Source: Jonesiaceae bacterium BS-20 (GTDB taxonomy: Bacteria > Actinomycetota > Actinomycetes > Actinomycetales > Cellulomonadaceae). From it: a stretch of DNA of 64,000 bases. The stretch spans positions 3,038,001-3,102,000 of the forward strand of contig CP146203.1 of assembly GCA_039995105.1 (NCBI GenBank), given 5' to 3'. Position numbers and translations under genes: made by a program. The notes beneath the pieces are model-generated. The model saw only the letters and a list, made by a program, of their open reading frames with translations. It had not been told where the DNA came from and ran no database searches. The number at the start of each line of letters is the position of its first letter. The stretch's first letter is position 1. This document shows, piece by piece, positions 14,017 through 23,556 of this stretch.

Positions 14017-15234
14017 ATGCGTTACGACTATGATTACGTAATTGTTGGGGCGGGGATGTCTGCGCATTCCGCCGCCCGGGGAATTAGGGAGCGCGATCCC
14101 GACGGGTCCATCTTGATCATTGGTCAGGAACCCGATCAACCATATTCCCGTCCAATGCTCAGCAAGGACCTCTGGTTTAAGTCAAACAAAACCGAGTCGG
14201 ATGCTCTCCTAAACACCGAGGCTAAAACCGGCGCAACCATCATGTCGAACACCCAGGTGGTTGAGTTCCGACCCGAGGATCACGTAGTCCTCACCGACGC
14301 GAGTGACCTAGTGCAGTACCGCAAAATCTTGCTGGCCACCGGTGGTACACCCCGAACTATCGGGGATCCAGCCGAGCGCATCATCTACTTCCGGACCCTT
14401 ACCGATTACCGCACGCTACGCAAGTACAGTGGTCCCGGGCAGCACGTAATCGTAGTTGGTGGCGGGTTTGTTGGTACAGAGTTGGCCTGCGGCTTGGCTC
14501 ACGCCGGCACCGAAGTAACCATGATCTTGGCCGAGACCGAGCTGGGTGTGCGTAACTTCCCTCCCGGCATCAGGGCCCGGCTGGCCCGAGTTTTTGCCGA
14601 GCACGGAATCGAGATCATGGAGGACTGCGCAGTCAAAACAATTGCGCAGGCTCCCAACGGCCAAACGGTTACGGTTACGTTGACCTCGGGTGAAGATTAT
14701 TCTGCCGATGCCGTAGTGGCGGGACTTGGCATCATTCCAAACATTGAACTTGCGAGTGACGCCGGGCTCGCCACCGAGGGTGGCGGCGTGGTGGTAGATC
14801 GGTTCTTGCAGACCAGCGACACCGATGTTTTTGCGTCCGGAGACATCGCCTTCTACATTGATCCTCTCCTGGGCCGCAGACGGATCGAACACGTGGACCA
14901 GGCTGAGTCCTCCGGGCGCACCGCGGGGCGCAACATGGTCAGCGCGGACGAACCCTATGACCACACCCCCCTGTTTTACTCCGACCTCTTTGATGACGGA
15001 TATGAGGCGGTGGGCCTGCTCAACGCCGAGTTGGACATGTTTGAGGACTGGGAACCGGGTAAGGAAAACGCTCAGGGCGTGGTCTACTACCTCGCCAACG
15101 GCGCGGTCCGTGGGGTCCTGTTATGGAATGTTTGGGATAGCACCGATCTGGCCCGTGAAGTCTTACGTGAATACGGTGAACCTGACTCGGTCAAGCATCC
15201 GGAACAGCTCAAAGGACGGATTCCTACCGGCTAG
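14017..15234 (+). CDS. FAD-dependent pyridine nucleotide-disulfide oxidoreductase, ferredoxin/rubredoxin reductase-like
   Basis: A 405-residue two-dinucleotide-fold flavoprotein. The FAD motif VIVGAGMSAHSAARGI lies at the N-terminus, the NAD motif VIVVGGGFVGTELA in the middle, and the second FAD motif DVFASGDIA toward the C-terminus; the last third is an AIF-like dimer or reductase domain with a FYSDLFDDGYEAVG stretch. The ATG at 14017 has a GGGGAGG six bases upstream. There is no redox-active CxxC, so it is an electron-transfer reductase rather than a disulfide reductase. Its partner (a ferredoxin or P450) is not adjacent; a P450 lies 9 kb away. Confidence 0.88.
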   Translation: MRYDYDYVIVGAGMSAHSAARGIRERDPDGSILIIGQEPDQPYSRPMLSKDLWFKSNKTESDALLNTEAKTGATIMSNTQVVEFRPEDHVVLTDASDLVQYRKILLATGGTPRTIGDPAERIIYFRTLTDYRTLRKYSGPGQHVIVVGGGFVGTELACGLAHAGTEVTMILAETELGVRNFPPGIRARLARVFAEHGIEIMEDCAVKTIAQAPNGQTVTVTLTSGEDYSADAVVAGLGIIPNIELASDAGLATEGGGVVVDRFLQTSDTDVFASGDIAFYIDPLLGRRRIEHVDQAESSGRTAGRNMVSADEPYDHTPLFYSDLFDDGYEAVGLLNAELDMFEDWEPGKENAQGVVYYLANGAVRGVLLWNVWDSTDLAREVLREYGEPDSVKHPEQLKGRIPTG

Positions 15235-16469
15235 GACAGGTCTTGCTCCCGCGCTGCTAAGGACCAATTTCTCGATGCCTTGGTAACGAAGAATCGAACC
15301 GACGCACCTAGCAGGAGCGTGAGTGCTGCGATCCAGACAGCGGATAGTCCAAGACCAGACCCAGTCTTTGCTAGGTCTGTGGACCCACCATCTGCTTTGT
15401 CAGGTTCCGGGGTGAGCAACTCCTGTGCGGTGACTACCAAACTTAACGAGGCACTTGAGTTTTGATACCCGGTCGCCTGATTTGAAAACGTCATTTGCAC
15501 CGTGGTTTCTTGCACCGCTTGGGGTGCAAGCTCGGTAATCTCCCAAGAACTCGCCCCATGCGGCCCATAACTAAGGTCTAGGTAATCCCGCAAAGAGTCA
15601 CCCTCGTCATCAAGACCACCGGACCGCTCATCAGCCCAAGTCCCTGTAACCGAAGCCGAGATTGGTTGCTGCGAAGCGTTTCTAATCCAAATCGCCGCGC
15701 TGAGCGTTTGGCCGGGAACAATCAGACCGGCATCGGGAAAAATGTCCACCGCAACGGCCCCGTCCCAGCGCACACCGTCCTGAGACACCTCAAGACCGGG
15801 CAGCTCCCGAGCCGTGGTCGCCTGAACAGGCGCAAGATTTGGTCCCATCACAAGTGCCCCGGCAATCAGCACCATTCCAACGCCACTTGCGGCTCTTCTG
15901 CCACGACTGGGGCGCTTTGGCAAGAAAAGGCTCACGCCGTAACCAATTACGCCGATCCCTAATACGGTTGTCACAGCGGCCTTCGTTTGCGGAGTCAAGA
16001 GGTTGGTAATCCGGCCGATGTACGGGATAGCGTAAACCAGCTTTCCTTGAATTTGGACTTCCTGAACCGGTAACTTATCAACCACATTATTCGCATCGCC
16101 CTGCGTGGTGAACGTGATCTGGCCACCGCTACTTTGGGATTTACCCACAATGCGGTGAGTGACCGTAGCCGGCTTGCCCGACTCAAGCTGGTAGGTAATG
16201 ACATCACCTATCTTGAGCTCAGCAACGGGCGTAGGCTTGACCCCAATCAGGTGCCCTGGCTCTAGATCGGGCCGCATACTGCCGGTCAAGACCGTATAGG
16301 TCGTTGCACCCATGGCCTTCGGAAACACAACCGTCAGCACGACAAATAACAGCAAGATTCCCAGTACTAGGTACATCAGGGCCTTGCCGAATGTCTCTAT
16401 GAAATCGCTTTTGTTCACAGAGCGACTTCGCCAGCATGCATCTACTAGGTTTCGACGTTCTACTTGCAT
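15231..16469 (-). CDS. SipW/ER-type signal peptidase I fused to an exported domain with LAKTG sorting motif
   Basis: A 412-residue protein. Residues 30-50 are a membrane anchor; Ser64 (LTGSMRP), His105 (VTHRIVG) and Asp125 (TTQGDANN) are the active site of the S26B (Ser/His, SipW type) family. A second helix lies at about 166-184. What follows is odd: a hydrophobic stretch at 196-214 ending PVQA, about 150 residues of beta-rich exported domain, then LAKTGSGLG at 366-374, a helix and a short polar tail containing Lys and Arg, which is a sortase signal. So the C-terminal half looks like a separate secreted, wall-anchored protein. The ATG at 16469 overlaps the previous gene by 10 bases and has AGGA upstream. 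Its likely substrates are the three upstream proteins. Confidence 0.85.
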   Translation of the reverse strand: MQVERRNLVDACWRSRSVNKSDFIETFGKALMYLVLGILLLFVVLTVVFPKAMGATTYTVLTGSMRPDLEPGHLIGVKPTPVAELKIGDVITYQLESGKPATVTHRIVGKSQSSGGQITFTTQGDANNVVDKLPVQEVQIQGKLVYAIPYIGRITNLLTPQTKAAVTTVLGIGVIGYGVSLFLPKRPSRGRRAASGVGMVLIAGALVMGPNLAPVQATTARELPGLEVSQDGVRWDGAVAVDIFPDAGLIVPGQTLSAAIWIRNASQQPISASVTGTWADERSGGLDDEGDSLRDYLDLSYGPHGASSWEITELAPQAVQETTVQMTFSNQATGYQNSSASLSLVVTAQELLTPEPDKADGGSTDLAKTGSGLGLSAVWIAALTLLLGASVRFFVTKASRNWSLAAREQDLS

Positions 16470-17002
16470 GCGATTCCTGACAACGAGAGTCCTGTAAGTA
16501 ACCCAGCATTTTGTAGTTGGACACCAGCGGTTGGACTCGACCTCCACTGCCCAGGTCCTATTGCGGTCACTTGAACTTGAATGGTTGTGCCACCAAGTAA
16601 TAACTCCTGCAGCCCATTGACTACCCCGCTGAGAAAACCTGAAGAGACTCGGACACGTGGCTCATTCACCGTGGCAGAACCTAGAATTACACCTTCAGGA
16701 TTAACAAAATCGACAACGTAGCCCACTGCTTGCGCGTTACCCACCCAAGTAAGTTCCGCCTCACTCACTAGATTAAGTAGCCCACCCCTTACGTCTCTAC
16801 AAAGGAAATTCGTGGGTGCGGCGACTCTACCTGTATCCAACGCAGCAACGCTTAGCTCCCTTGAATCACTCCAGAGTGCGGAGGCGCTCAGCGGCATGGT
16901 AAATACGGACATTGCCAAGACAAGCACAATCCCTTTTCCAAACCGTGCGAACATGTTCCGCTGAGGCTTCGAAGGTATTTGACCTGCGGTTTGTTCAACC
17001 AT
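16460..17002 (-). CDS. Exported protein of the SipW/TasA-like cluster, unknown function
   Basis: A 180-residue protein with a basic start (KPQRNMFARFGK), a hydrophobic core at about 24-40 and a likely cut after SASA before LWSDS. The W-S-D-S after the core resembles the YW-S region found after alternate signal peptides. The rest is beta-rich with a possible fibronectin-like pattern (AELTWVGNAQAVGYVVDF) and two cysteines, one at 88 and one at 179. It lies 6 bp after the preceding gene and overlaps the signal peptidase. I do not recognise the mature domain. Confidence 0.7.
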   Translation of the reverse strand: MVEQTAGQIPSKPQRNMFARFGKGIVLVLAMSVFTMPLSASALWSDSRELSVAALDTGRVAAPTNFLCRDVRGGLLNLVSEAELTWVGNAQAVGYVVDFVNPEGVILGSATVNEPRVRVSSGFLSGVVNGLQELLLGGTTIQVQVTAIGPGQWRSSPTAGVQLQNAGLLTGLSLSGIACK

Positions 17003-17008
17003 GTTTGA

Positions 17009-17512
17009 TCACCCCGCCTGTAATCCTGTGACAACGACCTTGGCTCCTAGGGTTTTGCCCTGCAACGTGCTGGGCACATTTGCTTTCAGCGTGAACCGAA
17101 CGCAAATATCCACATTCTGTCCCGGTGGCATGGATCCTTGACTTGGATATCCGTTGGTTTGAATTGGAGTTCCGGTGCCACACGCACCCGCCCAAGATTG
17201 GAAGATCACGTGATCCTTGAATGCCGGGTCTACCTTGTGGGCAACCTGTAGTTTCCACCGCAGATTTGTGCCACTGCCATGAATCGTGGCTTTGAGGTGA
17301 GCATCGGCTTTTTGACCGGGAAAGAGCGCACCCAAATGCGGTGCGCCCGCGGACCAATGGGCATTCAGGCTCAAGTCTCCCGTGGTAACAATTCCCACGT
17401 TAAGTGTTTCCTGGGCCTGCCAACCGGCCATCGTCCCCGGTGCTGTGGCAGCAACAATAGCCAACCCCGCGATAGCGAGGCCGGCTATTGCATTGCGAAT
17501 TACTGGTTTCAG
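17009..17512 (-). CDS. Exported SipW-cluster protein, apparent CTG start
   Basis: A protein of 167 residues if read from the CTG at 17512. That start gives a good signal peptide: MKPVIRN, then a hydrophobic core AIAGLAIAGLAIVAA, and PGTMAGWQ at the cut region. No ATG, GTG or TTG lies in frame upstream of the TTG at 17464, and that TTG would remove the basic n-region. The CTG overlaps the stop of the previous gene (CTGA), the same geometry as the usual ATGA. The mature part has two Cys (in ACGTG and DICV) and is beta-rich, like TasA/camelysin-type fibre proteins. The start codon is the uncertain part. Confidence 0.7.
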   Translation of the reverse strand: MKPVIRNAIAGLAIAGLAIVAATAPGTMAGWQAQETLNVGIVTTGDLSLNAHWSAGAPHLGALFPGQKADAHLKATIHGSGTNLRWKLQVAHKVDPAFKDHVIFQSWAGACGTGTPIQTNGYPSQGSMPPGQNVDICVRFTLKANVPSTLQGKTLGAKVVVTGLQAG

Positions 17513-18063
17513 AGTGGCTTCTGCGTGAGCGTGAAGTCAATTGCGTTGAGGTTAATGGCCTCGTTCACATCGATTTGGCCCCCCGTGGTATCAGCGAATA
17601 CGACGGTCACGGTTGCCGCAATTGAATCTCCGCTATCGGCCGGAGACAACTCTTGTGTTGCTGCACCACCTGCAAGCGAGGCGGCAATGGTCACGTTGGC
17701 TGCGTCAGTAACACCACTGGTGTCAATAGTGAGATCAGCTTTGAGGTTGTCACCCTTGAGCGTTACATCAAGCATTTGGACCAACTCAAGTTTGTCTCCT
17801 GGAACAATCTCCAAGTCATTGATGTTTGCCGCACCAACGGTGACGGGAGAGTTGGTGCCGTGCGTCAACGTCCATGTTGCCGCCCCCAATTCTAGATTGA
17901 GGTCACCGGTGTTAATTGAAGTTCCCTGAAGTGTTTGATTCGTTGACCAGTAGGCCAGGGTTCCACCCCCGCCAGCTAGGAGTGCGGCTCCGAGTGCAAT
18001 CGCGATTCCACCCTTGAGTTTCGAGTTCTTTTTAGTTTCTGGTACGACTTTTTCTAGCAACAT
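17509..18063 (-). CDS. Alternate signal peptide exported protein, TasA/CalY-like
   Basis: A 184-residue protein. Residues 16-40 (KLKGGIAIALGAALLAGGGG then TLAYWS) are the alternate-type signal peptide that SipW-like peptidases cut; the mature part is beta-rich and has no cysteine. In Bacillus, TasA of this type builds amyloid-like fibres in the biofilm matrix; a surface fibre or matrix role here is inferred. It is the first gene of a four-gene minus-strand operon with the signal peptidase last. The ribosome site AGGGGG lies four bases before the ATG. Confidence 0.8.
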   Translation of the reverse strand: MLLEKVVPETKKNSKLKGGIAIALGAALLAGGGGTLAYWSTNQTLQGTSINTGDLNLELGAATWTLTHGTNSPVTVGAANINDLEIVPGDKLELVQMLDVTLKGDNLKADLTIDTSGVTDAANVTIAASLAGGAATQELSPADSGDSIAATVTVVFADTTGGQIDVNEAINLNAIDFTLTQKPL

Positions 18064-19589: not shown

Positions 19590-20785
19590 CCACCGACGCG
19601 GCCCCGACACCCTCGGCGGCAAAACCTACGGGTAGGAACTCACACCCGATTCCACTGCGCGCACTCCTGATCATCCCCGGCGGAATTAGCCTGCTAGTTG
19701 GACTCAACGCCGCACTTCAGCTCCTGGGCCTACCGGCGCCGATTGCTTTAGACCGCCTCCCCGACGTTCATGGCCTACTGATGACCCTGGGGTTTGTGGG
19801 CACACTCATTACTCTCGAACGCTCGGTTGCCTACGGCAAGGCCATTGGTTACCTGCCTCCGGCCTTCATTGGGGCCGGTGGACTGCTTCTCATTTCTCCT
19901 GCCCCCATCAAAGTCGCACATATTTTGCTCCTAGCGGGGACGCTTGGACTTTGCCTCCTGTACCTACCCCTGTGGCGCCGTAACCGTGACGAAGCGGTAT
20001 TGATTCAGGCAGTCGGTGCCGTCATGGCAGCGGTAGCTCCTGCACTTCTCATTGCTGGATTTGGTGTCAATACGCTCTTGCCTTGGCTAGCCGGGCTTGT
20101 CATCTTAACCATCGGCGGTGAACGCTTGGAATTGGCCCGCATGGTGATGGGCAAGAATGCCTCCGCCGTCCTAGTGACAATGAGCGGCGCATTTCTAAGC
20201 GCCGCGATTGTTAGCCTCATGTGGCCGCTCGTAGGGTACCCACTGCTCGGTGCAGTATTGCTCATCATGACCGTGTGGTTGGCTTTCCATGATGTAGCCA
20301 AGCGAACCATCAACGCCAAGGGCGCCGTTCGCTTCATGGCTGCTTGTATGCTTGCGGGATACTTCTGGTTGGCTTTAGCCGGCGCCGTATGGGTGACCGG
20401 TCCCGCATTTGATGGAGAACGCTACGACGCGGTAATCCACGGGATCTTTGTTGGTTTCACAATGTCTATGATCATGGCGCACGCAACCGTGATCCTACCC
20501 GCCGTGATCCGCCGGCCGCTACCCTACCGCTTGAGTATGTGGTGGGCAGCAGGCGTGGTGCATGTGGGACTCATCATCCGGATCTGGATTGGGGATGGTC
20601 TTATGGTTGCCATCGCCCACCAAATCGGCGGACTGCTCAATGTAATCGGCCTCCTAGCCTTCTTCATCATTGCCGCCTGGAGCGCAATCTCCGGGCCTCC
20701 CGCAAGATCCGCCAGATCCCCGCAACTGGCTCGTAGTAACCCCGCTGAACCTAGCGGTGCCAGTTCACACGGAGAGATCAAATGA
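19586..20785 (+). CDS. NnrS-like multi-pass membrane protein
   Basis: A 399-residue protein with about 10-12 helices and histidines inside them (DVHGLLMTLGFVGTLITLERS, YDAVIHGIFVGFTMSMIMAHA, VVHVGLI, VAIAHQIGGLLN). This pattern fits the NnrS family of haem-copper-like membrane proteins, which are linked to nitric-oxide stress and denitrification. The GTG start overlaps the regulator by 4 bp and its end overlaps NirK by 4 bp, so the three genes are translated together. A role in NO tolerance or copper delivery to NirK is inferred. Confidence 0.7.
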   Translation: MTTDAAPTPSAAKPTGRNSHPIPLRALLIIPGGISLLVGLNAALQLLGLPAPIALDRLPDVHGLLMTLGFVGTLITLERSVAYGKAIGYLPPAFIGAGGLLLISPAPIKVAHILLLAGTLGLCLLYLPLWRRNRDEAVLIQAVGAVMAAVAPALLIAGFGVNTLLPWLAGLVILTIGGERLELARMVMGKNASAVLVTMSGAFLSAAIVSLMWPLVGYPLLGAVLLIMTVWLAFHDVAKRTINAKGAVRFMAACMLAGYFWLALAGAVWVTGPAFDGERYDAVIHGIFVGFTMSMIMAHATVILPAVIRRPLPYRLSMWWAAGVVHVGLIIRIWIGDGLMVAIAHQIGGLLNVIGLLAFFIIAAWSAISGPPARSARSPQLARSNPAEPSGASSHGEIK

Positions 20786-23556
20786 TTCCCATCGCCGCCC
20801 CGATGACACCACCGGCCAAGCCGATAACCAAGAAATTCTGGCCACTGCGAGACATTCCTACCGCTTTCTGGCTTGTCCTGCTGGTCTTTTCTACGGTCAT
20901 TCACCAGTGGGTCCCAGCACCCCGTTGGCTGATGCTCCACCTGTTGTTCCTCGGTGCTATCACCCACGCCATCTTGGTCTGGTCACAGCACTTTGCAGTC
21001 GCGCTGTTACATACACCCGCAACCGAGCAAGACCGCCGTTCGCAATCCTGGCGGCTCATTTTCGCCAATCTCGGAACCGCGATCGTTGTTGCTGGCGTCC
21101 TTGCATCGTTGTGGCCTATCACCTCAATTGGCGCTACCTTGGTTGGGGTCGCGGTTGTCTGGCACGGCATCAACTTGTTTAAAAAGGTACGCGGGGCGCT
21201 TGGCTCTCGGTTCGCTTTCACCGTGCGGTATTACATTGCCGCCGCAATCTTCTTGCCCCTAGGCGCAATCCTTGGAACGTTACTTTCCCACGGTTTTGCT
21301 GATCCAACGCACGCCCAGGTCAAGCTTTCCCACGCTCTGCTCAATATCTTGGGTTGGATGGGCCTAACAGTGCTGGGAACATTGGTCACCTTATGGCCCA
21401 CGATGCTTCGCACCAAGATGCTAGATTCCGCCATCACCGCATCCCAGCGAGCACTTCCCCTCCTAGTTGTTTCGGTTCTGATCGCAGGGGCAGCTGCAAT
21501 TCTTGGTTCGTTATGGATTGCTGCTCTTGGACTGGCCGGTTACCTCGGAGGTCTGCTGGCGCTGATCATTCCTTTTGCCCAAACCGCAAAGGTAAAGCCA
21601 CCGCGAACATACGCCACACTTTCTGCGGGCATGGGAATGCTCTGGTTTGCAGGCAGTTTGGCTTACCTGCTCGCAGGACTTATTGTTGGTGCGATTCAAG
21701 GGAACTCTTGGGAAATTGCTGAGTCTTACTTTGCGTGGATCGCTCCGTACTTAGCAGCTGGATTTGGTGCCCAGATCCTTCTTGGCGCCCTGTCTTACCT
21801 CCTGCCGGTTTCGGTTTCCTCTGGTCCCGCATCCGTTCGTGCCGCCAACAAGGCCATGGATAAGGGTGCGTCTTTCAGGATCGTTGCGGCCAACGGCGCG
21901 CTCATTATCTGCCTGTTGCCGGTGCCGTCACTGGTACGAGTTCTTGCGTCCGTTCTGTACCTGGCAGTCATGGCCAGCTTTATTGTGCTCATCTTTTTCA
22001 CCAGTAAGGCTGCTCGCATAGCTAAGCAAGAGGTAGCCGCGTCTGGCCCAGCAGTTGTTGGTATTGGCCCGGATGGTAAGCGTCTTCCCCGTCCCAAGGT
22101 GGATGACCGCCCGAAGGGGCAGCGTGCCGGCCAAGCCATGATGGGCGGCGTTGCAGTTGTGCTGACAGTCGTTCTGGGCGCCGCACTTGATCCTTCGGCG
22201 CTTGGTTCAACCGCTCTTGGGATGGTCAACAACTCTGGCCAAGGCACAGTAGCTGGTGGCGCCTCCCCAACGCAGGTAGCCCCCAATGGCAAGACCGAGA
22301 CCGTAGCAGTCGAGGCTCGGGACATGAAGTTCTTCCCAAACTCAATCGAAGTTGAGCCCGGGACCGCCCTCATGATCGAACTCACCAACACGGACAAGGC
22401 AGATGTCCACGACCTTGTCCTAGCGAACGGTGTGAAGTCCGGGCGGCTCGCCCCCGGGGCATCAGCCACAATGGAAATCGGTGTTATCTCAGCCAATCTT
22501 GAGGGCTGGTGTTCAATTATTGGTCACCGCCAGATGGGTATGACCCTAGACATCACCGTGACCGGTGACGACGGTGATGGATCTGGATCTTCCGAACCGC
22601 CCACCATGGACCACACTGCTGGCATGCGCCCGGACGGATCGGCAGCCGATGATCTCGATTTCATGGCCCCAGCTGCCGCCGACTTTGAGGCCTACGACCC
22701 AGCCCTGCCAAAATTGCCACCACGCAACGCCGATGGCAGCCCCACAGTCCACAAAGAAACATTTGAAATCATCGAAAAGGAGATGGAAGTAGCCCCCGGG
22801 GTCACCCAGATGCTTTGGACCTTCAACGGCATTGTGCCGGGCCCTCGCCTACACGGCCGCGTAGGAGATATCTTCGAAATCACCTTGGTCAACAATGGCT
22901 CGATGGGCCACTCGATCGACTTCCACGCCTCCAACCTGGCACCTGACATGCCCATGCGAACGATTGCACCGGGGGAGTCACTGGTCTACAAATTCGAGGC
23001 TACTCGCGCTGGTATTTGGATGTACCACTGCGGAACCATGCCCATGACCGCCCACATTGCCAACGGCATGGCCGGAGCCGTCATTATCGAGCCGGATAAC
23101 CTGCCTGAGGTAGACAAGAGCTTTGTGATGATCCAGTCCGAGCTCTACCTAGGTGCCCAGGGCGAGCCCGTTGATATGGACAAGGTCGCCGCTGAGAAAG
23201 CCGACGTAGTCGCGTTCAACGGATACTCCAACCAGTATGTGGACCGTCCTGTCGAGGCAAAAGTAGGGGAGCGGGTGCGGATCTGGGTGCTCGATGTTGG
23301 GCCTTCTCGCGCTACCTCCTTCCATATTGTGGGTGGGCAATTTGACCGGGTGTGGTTTGAAGGAGCTTACATTTTGGGCGACGCCGATGCTCCTGCCGAT
23401 GGCCGTCTTGGCGGTAGCCAGGCATTAGGACTGCAGGCAGCACAGGGTGGCTTTGTCGAATTAGTGTTTCCTGAAGCCGGTAACTACGCGATGGTCAACC
23501 ACATCATGATCGATGCTGAACGTGGCGCTAAAGGCATCTTCCACATCACCAACTAG
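20782..23556 (+). CDS. nirK: Copper nitrite reductase fused to a membrane domain and an extra cupredoxin
   Basis: A 924-residue, three-part protein. Residues 1 to about 430 are a multi-helix membrane domain with in-helix histidines (LHLLFLGAITHAIL). Residues about 505-595 are a cupredoxin with type 1 copper ligands His543, Cys577, His582 and Met585 or Met587. Residues about 620-924 are NirK: type 1 copper His710, Cys750, His758 and Met763; type 2 copper His715, His749 and His907; catalytic Asp713 and His848. All expected ligands are present, so it should reduce nitrite to NO outside the cell membrane. The cupredoxin may pass electrons from the membrane part. Start ATG overlaps the NnrS-like gene by 4 bp. 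Confidence 0.93.
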   Translation: MIPIAAPMTPPAKPITKKFWPLRDIPTAFWLVLLVFSTVIHQWVPAPRWLMLHLLFLGAITHAILVWSQHFAVALLHTPATEQDRRSQSWRLIFANLGTAIVVAGVLASLWPITSIGATLVGVAVVWHGINLFKKVRGALGSRFAFTVRYYIAAAIFLPLGAILGTLLSHGFADPTHAQVKLSHALLNILGWMGLTVLGTLVTLWPTMLRTKMLDSAITASQRALPLLVVSVLIAGAAAILGSLWIAALGLAGYLGGLLALIIPFAQTAKVKPPRTYATLSAGMGMLWFAGSLAYLLAGLIVGAIQGNSWEIAESYFAWIAPYLAAGFGAQILLGALSYLLPVSVSSGPASVRAANKAMDKGASFRIVAANGALIICLLPVPSLVRVLASVLYLAVMASFIVLIFFTSKAARIAKQEVAASGPAVVGIGPDGKRLPRPKVDDRPKGQRAGQAMMGGVAVVLTVVLGAALDPSALGSTALGMVNNSGQGTVAGGASPTQVAPNGKTETVAVEARDMKFFPNSIEVEPGTALMIELTNTDKADVHDLVLANGVKSGRLAPGASATMEIGVISANLEGWCSIIGHRQMGMTLDITVTGDDGDGSGSSEPPTMDHTAGMRPDGSAADDLDFMAPAAADFEAYDPALPKLPPRNADGSPTVHKETFEIIEKEMEVAPGVTQMLWTFNGIVPGPRLHGRVGDIFEITLVNNGSMGHSIDFHASNLAPDMPMRTIAPGESLVYKFEATRAGIWMYHCGTMPMTAHIANGMAGAVIIEPDNLPEVDKSFVMIQSELYLGAQGEPVDMDKVAAEKADVVAFNGYSNQYVDRPVEAKVGERVRIWVLDVGPSRATSFHIVGGQFDRVWFEGAYILGDADAPADGRLGGSQALGLQAAQGGFVELVFPEAGNYAMVNHIMIDAERGAKGIFHITN

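Follow-up and report, generated by a model that had tools for sequence, protein, structure and literature searches.

How could a signal peptidase and a protein destined for the cell surface come to be encoded in one open frame, and what would become of the joined chain? This question is raised by a gene on the minus strand of a 64,000-nucleotide stretch of the genome of Jonesiaceae bacterium BS-20 (GenBank assembly GCA_039995105.1, contig CP146203.1, positions 3,038,001 to 3,102,000; hereafter the window), whose 412-residue product unites a SipW-type signal peptidase with an exported domain bearing a LAKTG sorting motif. In a preliminary description it had been suggested that the enzyme cuts itself and thereby releases a sortase substrate, which could anchor the TasA-like fibres made by three genes upstream. 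The reading favoured here, to which we give somewhat better than an even chance, is that a recurrent fusion yields, in a single chain, the peptidase that processes the fibre and a fibre partner anchored at the surface; the general signal peptidase would then free this partner, and a class E sortase would join it to the wall.

A peptidase and an exported protein in one frame

The open frame runs from 15231 to 16547 on the minus strand when counted from its first GTG, while a start at the ATG at 16469 gives the product of 412 residues; this codon follows AGGA and overlaps the last bases of the gene before it. The gene and its parts are as follows.

15231..16469, minus strand: sipW-partner fusion gene, 412 residues (open reading frame list, TIGR02228, alignment of fused proteins)
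15909..16469, minus strand: SipW/S26B signal peptidase half, residues 1-187, with helix 1, a catalytic domain (S64, H105, D125) and helix 2 (TIGR02228, 95.2 bits; helices predicted at 20-53 and 160-182)
15822..15908, minus strand: basic loop and probable former signal peptide ending PVQA, residues 188-216 (aligns with the N-terminal signal peptides of stand-alone partners; model confidence below 50)
15384..15821, minus strand: exported beta domain, residues 217-362 (mostly beta strands in the model, stand-alone homologues in relatives)
15360..15374, minus strand: LAKTG sorting motif, residues 366-370 (L..TG kept in the aligned back halves)
15234..15359, minus strand: C-terminal helix and tail, residues 371-412 (helix 375-411 in the model)

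The front half scores above the cut-off of TIGR02228, the model of the archaeal and endoplasmic reticulum type of signal peptidase I (S26B), with 95.2 bits against 51.85, and Ser64, His105 and Asp125 are invariant across four aligned fused proteins, which bears out the peptidase and active site first described. Its score remains below the cut-off of the Bacillus SipW equivalog NF046067 (76.4 against 190 bits) and slightly below that of Pfam S26 (20.3 against 22.9). After the second helix follows a basic loop, KRPSRGRR. The observation that a peptidase is joined to an exported, sorting-signalled domain in one frame is confirmed.

The partner as a gene of its own

Relatives of the back half were sought with two partner alignments, A1 of 10 rows and A3 of 38 rows, the latter built from 38 of 50 partner sequences, as one of the remaining 12 contained a masked stretch and the others were divergent or near copies. 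A1 matched 192 of 221 genomes of the window's family at E<=0.001, where the weak ones among the matches listed mostly covered the tail end only, and the reading of 50 of the best A1 places revealed fused frames in four genomes, namely that of the window (G000), Promicromonospora thailandica (G030), P. citrea (G216) and Myceligenerans salitolerans (G203). A3 matched 45 of 396 genomes of the order at E<=1e-10, and 42 loci that were read added two more fused cases, G411 and the divergent, weakly scoring G507 (76.9 and 37.9 bits). A scan of the contigs of named genomes with the single protein found no match, and a scan of named genomes with the four fused proteins gave 75 loci. The partner stands next to SipW or fused with it in many actinobacteria, e.g., Promicromonospora, Cryobacterium and Nocardioides. 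In Pfam and NCBIfam, few of the 38 partners were matched, mainly via anchor-tail models.

A pair was defined as a match to the SipW model of at least 60 bits and a match to the partner model of at least 35 bits, on one strand and at most 400 bases apart; loci without such a pair were set aside, in several of which the two matches lie farther apart. Under this definition there are 81 distinct adjacent pairs; the two genes are separate in 75, with sipW leading in 50 and the partner in 25, and fused in 6. In 75 of 81 pairs, then, the back half has a frame to itself, which disposes of the concern that it might never be seen alone. Antribacter gilvus, for example, has the two genes apart. The stand-alone partners, encoded next to sipW, begin with a signal peptide of their own, followed by a beta domain, an L[AP]xTG motif, a helix and a basic tail, so that the earlier impression of a complete exported and anchored protein in the back half holds. 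Among the 75 split pairs, the partner-first order occurs, for instance, in Cryobacterium, Frigoribacterium and other loci (L145, L146, L136).

The spacing of the separate genes suggests how they could be joined. With sipW first, a partner start is possible within 10 nucleotides of the sipW stop in 46 of 50 split pairs, and one overlapping that stop by exactly 4 nucleotides in 37 of 50, where these counts refer to possible starts rather than to starts known to be used. From such an overlap, an insertion or deletion of one base could fuse the two genes.

Recurrence of the fusion

In a tree of 80 pairs, one of the 81 being omitted, the label "fused" needs four changes, and the starred branches force two of them. 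The fused proteins of Promicromonospora and Myceligenerans form one group of three with a support of 99 in the Shimodaira-Hasegawa-like approximate likelihood ratio test (SH-aLRT), while the window protein, G411 and G507 stand apart from this trio. The approximately unbiased (AU) test was applied to a subset of 30 rows, chosen after the larger tree had been seen, with LG+G4 and a quick tree, so its p-values serve as a guide only; five fused rows were tested in it, G507 being absent. A single clade for these five rows was rejected (p=1.0e-5), as was a grouping of the window protein with the trio (p=0.003). The grouping of the window protein with G411 was neither shown nor rejected (support 73). 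Under the model used, the fusion appears to have at least two origins, perhaps more. Repeated fusion of this kind, in the manner of "Rosetta stone" evidence, suggests that peptidase and partner work together.

The same data bear on the thought that a sequencing or assembly error masks an ordinary overlap of two genes. One wrong base within a 4-base overlap would indeed fuse the frames; against this, six fused frames come from separate genomes and include a supported group of three, and the window genome is one contig, which leaves this explanation a practically negligible chance.

Probable release of the exported half

According to the portion of the report available (PMC10269814), TasA carries an aromatic residue at P2' and tryptophan at P2, SipW cleaves TasA while LepB acts on it only poorly, and an aromatic P2' is found in none of 143 verified LepB substrates. 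The three proteins encoded upstream of the fused gene carry aromatic sites of this kind (LAYWST, MAGWQ and SALWSD), whereas the back half of the window protein has no aromatic residue at its cleavage site and hence lacks this mark of a SipW substrate. The difference recurs among the relatives: tryptophan follows the hydrophobic stretch in 18 of 19 partners picked by hand for this comparison against 2 of 78 back halves, and any aromatic residue in 19 of 19 against 9 of 78. Some of the 19 are close relatives, and a Fisher p-value is not to be taken at face value; three of the 81 back halves were dropped since the site-finding motif was missing or too near the start. The scarcity of aromatic sites implies that the back half is built like an ordinary signal peptidase I substrate. 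In all six fused proteins a short hydrophobic stretch and a small-x-A site precede the beta domain (by eye), and the genome carries, at another site, a gene for an ordinary signal peptidase (138.6 bits).

These findings tell against the proposal with which the locus was first presented, that the SipW half cleaves its own second signal peptide and frees a sortase substrate. Simple topology would put the cleavage site and the active site on one side of the membrane, which speaks in its favour. The aromatic signature, however, is found in the three upstream proteins and is absent from the back half of the window protein, the genome supplies an ordinary signal peptidase, and the stand-alone partners have the same kind of site as the fused ones. 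We consider self-cutting distinctly unlikely.

A different fate would be that the chain stays whole, in which case the former signal peptide would be a plain membrane helix and sortase would tie the entire protein to the wall. The result would be a signal peptidase tethered there, with the processing site kept at the base of the fibre. No feature of the sequence demonstrates cutting, the fusion arose repeatedly, and some members of the family retain only a terminal membrane helix, all of which agree with it; the short hydrophobic stretch followed by a small-x-A site in each of the six fused proteins, resembling the signal peptides of stand-alone partners, does not. This alternative is judged unlikely. 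If it were true, subunits would be matured and loaded at one fixed spot, and repeated fusion would reflect selection for a fibre-assembly port.

Proposed attachment to the cell wall

For the favoured reading, in which the freed partner is handed to a sortase, the back half shows what is expected of a sortase substrate, namely an L[AP]xTG motif, a helix and a charged tail, and these features are kept in its homologues, although not in all. L..TG is invariant in the 38 back halves aligned in A3, which had been collected with a profile extending over the tail, and L[AP]xTG is present in all six fused proteins. Over the 81 pairs, 30 have LAxTG, 29 LPxTG, 6 another LxxTG (one of which, L149, is LPTTG when read) and 15 no such motif by pattern, one frame being cut. 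As to the conservation of LAKTG raised at the outset, LxxTG occurs in 65 of 81 pairs and LAxTG in 30 of 81, and the exact letters are those of the window protein only.

Within the 3.5 Mb genome, the generic LPXTG model TIGR01167 finds 30 sortase-type tails at E<=0.05, 18 of them on frames of more than 1000 residues. Reading 28 of these tails by eye gave LAKTG in 12, LPxTG in 10, LAQTG in 3, LSKTG and MPKTG in 1 each, and no motif in 1; thus, no other sorting motif is as frequent as LAKTG in the tails that were read. The class E sortase that the preliminary description proposed to look for is indeed present as a single copy (215 bits against a cut-off of 160; nearest solved relative 5utt, 242 bits), and the protein adjoining its gene ends in LASTG. 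The accessible text of PMC5148588 states that Streptomyces coelicolor SrtE1 cuts LAETG as well as LPETG, preferring LAETG approximately 2-fold. The genome also encodes one class C sortase beside pilin-like genes. At this locus (L002, G000:C1:503457-506831) the sortase stands next to a SpaH/EbpB-type pilin gene with LPLTG, which forms a second, separate fibre system. Both sortase genes found lie far from the fused gene, so that the proposal of a "self-contained" fibre-assembly operon is not borne out.

LxxTG is missing from the partners of four loci (L099, L101, L102 and L128, one of them Arthrobacter citreus), which have in common a STVEPIIR stretch and end in a helix; this suggests that membrane anchoring has replaced wall anchoring in these sequences.

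Upstream genes and predicted fold

The genes that would supply the fibre lie immediately upstream.

17509..18063, minus strand: gene 1, SipW-dependent TasA-like protein (TIGR04089, 118.5 bits, cut-off 60; TIGR04088, 22.4 bits, cut-off 19)
17009..17512, minus strand: gene 2, short TasA-like protein (TIGR04089, 24.8 bits, under the cut-off of 60; probable CTG start at 17512 over the stop of gene 1)
16460..17002, minus strand: gene 3, exported protein with the SipW-type site SASALWSDS (from its sequence)

Whether the fused gene has the neighbours of a SipW-dependent TasA-like operon is answered in the affirmative by gene 1, the only place in the whole genome above the TIGR04089 cut-off; gene 2 is a weak second, and gene 3 matches no Pfam family and neither TIGR04089 nor TIGR04088. 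In the split locus G011, three exported genes with aromatic sites precede sipW, the first of which runs off the end of the locus, while in the fused locus G411, which is incomplete, two such genes are visible before the fusion. For gene 2, no ATG, GTG or TTG keeps the basic N-terminus, which the CTG in CTGA (17509-17512, minus strand) over the gene 1 stop would do; this overlap resembles the 4-nucleotide overlaps elsewhere in this operon type.

A TasA-like sandwich fold is plausible for the exported domain. Modelled alone, it reaches a mean predicted local distance difference test score (pLDDT) of 79.9 and consists mostly of beta strands, and the full-length model (pLDDT 76.5) places helices at 20-53, 160-182 and 375-411. 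The first match of Foldseek in the PDB is the TasA fibre 8aur, a weak one (E 2.6e-3, template modelling (TM) score 0.49 by query length); ranked below it are pilins, WxLIP and PapD-like domains. A sequence search of the PDB with the partner profile found no relative (best E 0.026).

Elsewhere in the window, 20782-23556 on the plus strand encodes a protein of 924 residues. Its N-terminal part is long and hydrophobic, and it further comprises a cupredoxin-like domain and a multicopper oxidase part; it may resemble copper nitrite reductase.

Comparison with known systems

As described in the part of PMC13082335 at hand, tapA-sipW-tasA of Bacillus subtilis likewise encodes a dedicated archaeal-type signal peptidase together with TasA-like fibre proteins; the operon described here differs in its L[AP]xTG partner, fused to the peptidase. 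The CapP/TasA/CalY filaments of Bacillus cereus share SipW-processed fibre subunits and a wall-associated helper, and are described in the same portion (PMC13082335) as sortase-independent, whereas the partner here bears a sorting signal. In sipW-bsaABCRSD of Clostridium perfringens, sipW stands first and is accompanied by exported proteins, one of them polymer-forming; unlike the partner, BsaA has no predicted LPXTG-like motif according to the available extract of PMC7395162, and a nearby sortase gene is not needed. With the substrates of class E sortases, i.e., actinobacterial LAXTG proteins (PMC5148588, in the text available), the back half shares LAKTG, the helix, the tail and the presence of a class E sortase in the genome, and departs from them by its position behind a membrane enzyme and by a longer, less basic tail, as it also appears by eye beside most sortase tails read in this genome. 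In open literature searched by title and the start of the abstract, with subscription journals mostly outside the scope, there was among the papers listed no account of actinobacterial SipW operons or of a SipW-partner fusion.

Points against the favoured reading

Several observations weigh against a wall-anchored partner released from the chain. The 15 of 81 pairs without LxxTG, 13 of which end in a helix and a basic tail by eye, indicate that wall linkage is not universal in the partner family. Generic LPXTG models miss the tail of the window protein, which is not among the 30 places that TIGR01167 finds at E<=0.05 in the genome. In hand-chosen genomes, a class E sortase occurs in all 50 that have the partner, scoring over the cut-off in 49, and in 38 of 40 that lack a strong partner match. 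Its co-occurrence was dropped as support, being uninformative when the enzyme is near-universal in the genomes tested; its presence is required by the model, not telling. Residues 188-221 form no helix in the full-length model and have low confidence there, and VIA-align gives TasA a Z of 7.3 over 129 residues with a root mean square deviation (rmsd) of 3.5, within a generic-match range in which other rows reach Z 8.6. As regards relatives in other bacteria, the B. cereus filaments are reported as sortase-independent in the extract of PMC13082335, and BsaA polymers were unaffected by loss of the nearby sortase in that of PMC7395162.

The pairs lacking LxxTG also bring up the idea that the back half acts on the enzyme, e.g., as a sensor or regulator of fibre processing, with the sorting motif as a relic. 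The helix and basic tail that 13 of these 15 keep would fit it; retention of the motif in all six fused proteins and the prevalence of separate genes in either order do not, and we regard this role as very unlikely.

A further difficulty lies in an in-frame GTG (15935) and TTG (15923) ahead of the signal peptide, from either of which the back half could start separately. If it were also, or mainly, translated alone from one of them, two proteins would result. Both codons would retain the basic residues ahead of a normal signal peptide, and the partner start in relatives lies near the stop of sipW. By eye, however, no clear ribosome-binding sequence precedes either codon, and TTG and GTG are weaker start codons, so that internal initiation is given hardly any weight.

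Proposed course of events and its meaning

Considering the above, the favoured course of events can be set out as follows. The gene is a fusion of two genes that lie side by side in relatives, usually overlapping by a few bases, i.e., sipW and the gene of an exported, putatively beta-sandwich partner. As is characteristic of the SipW family, the enzyme would remove the unusual signal peptides of the upstream TasA-like proteins. Its half would cross the membrane twice and end on the basic cytoplasmic loop, from where the former signal peptide would re-enter the membrane and export the second half. The general signal peptidase probably cuts the latter free at its small-x-A site, which is of the ordinary kind, and the class E sortase would then link it to the wall, where its most likely role would be to anchor the TasA-like fibre at the surface, to cap it or to start it. 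That the back half anchors this fibre, as was surmised at the outset, is plausible. The fusion would fix a 1:1 ratio of processing enzyme and anchor and bring the two together.

A sorting-signalled partner encoded beside SipW, or fused to it, would offer a testable answer to the question of how TasA-like fibres are held on actinobacterial cells.

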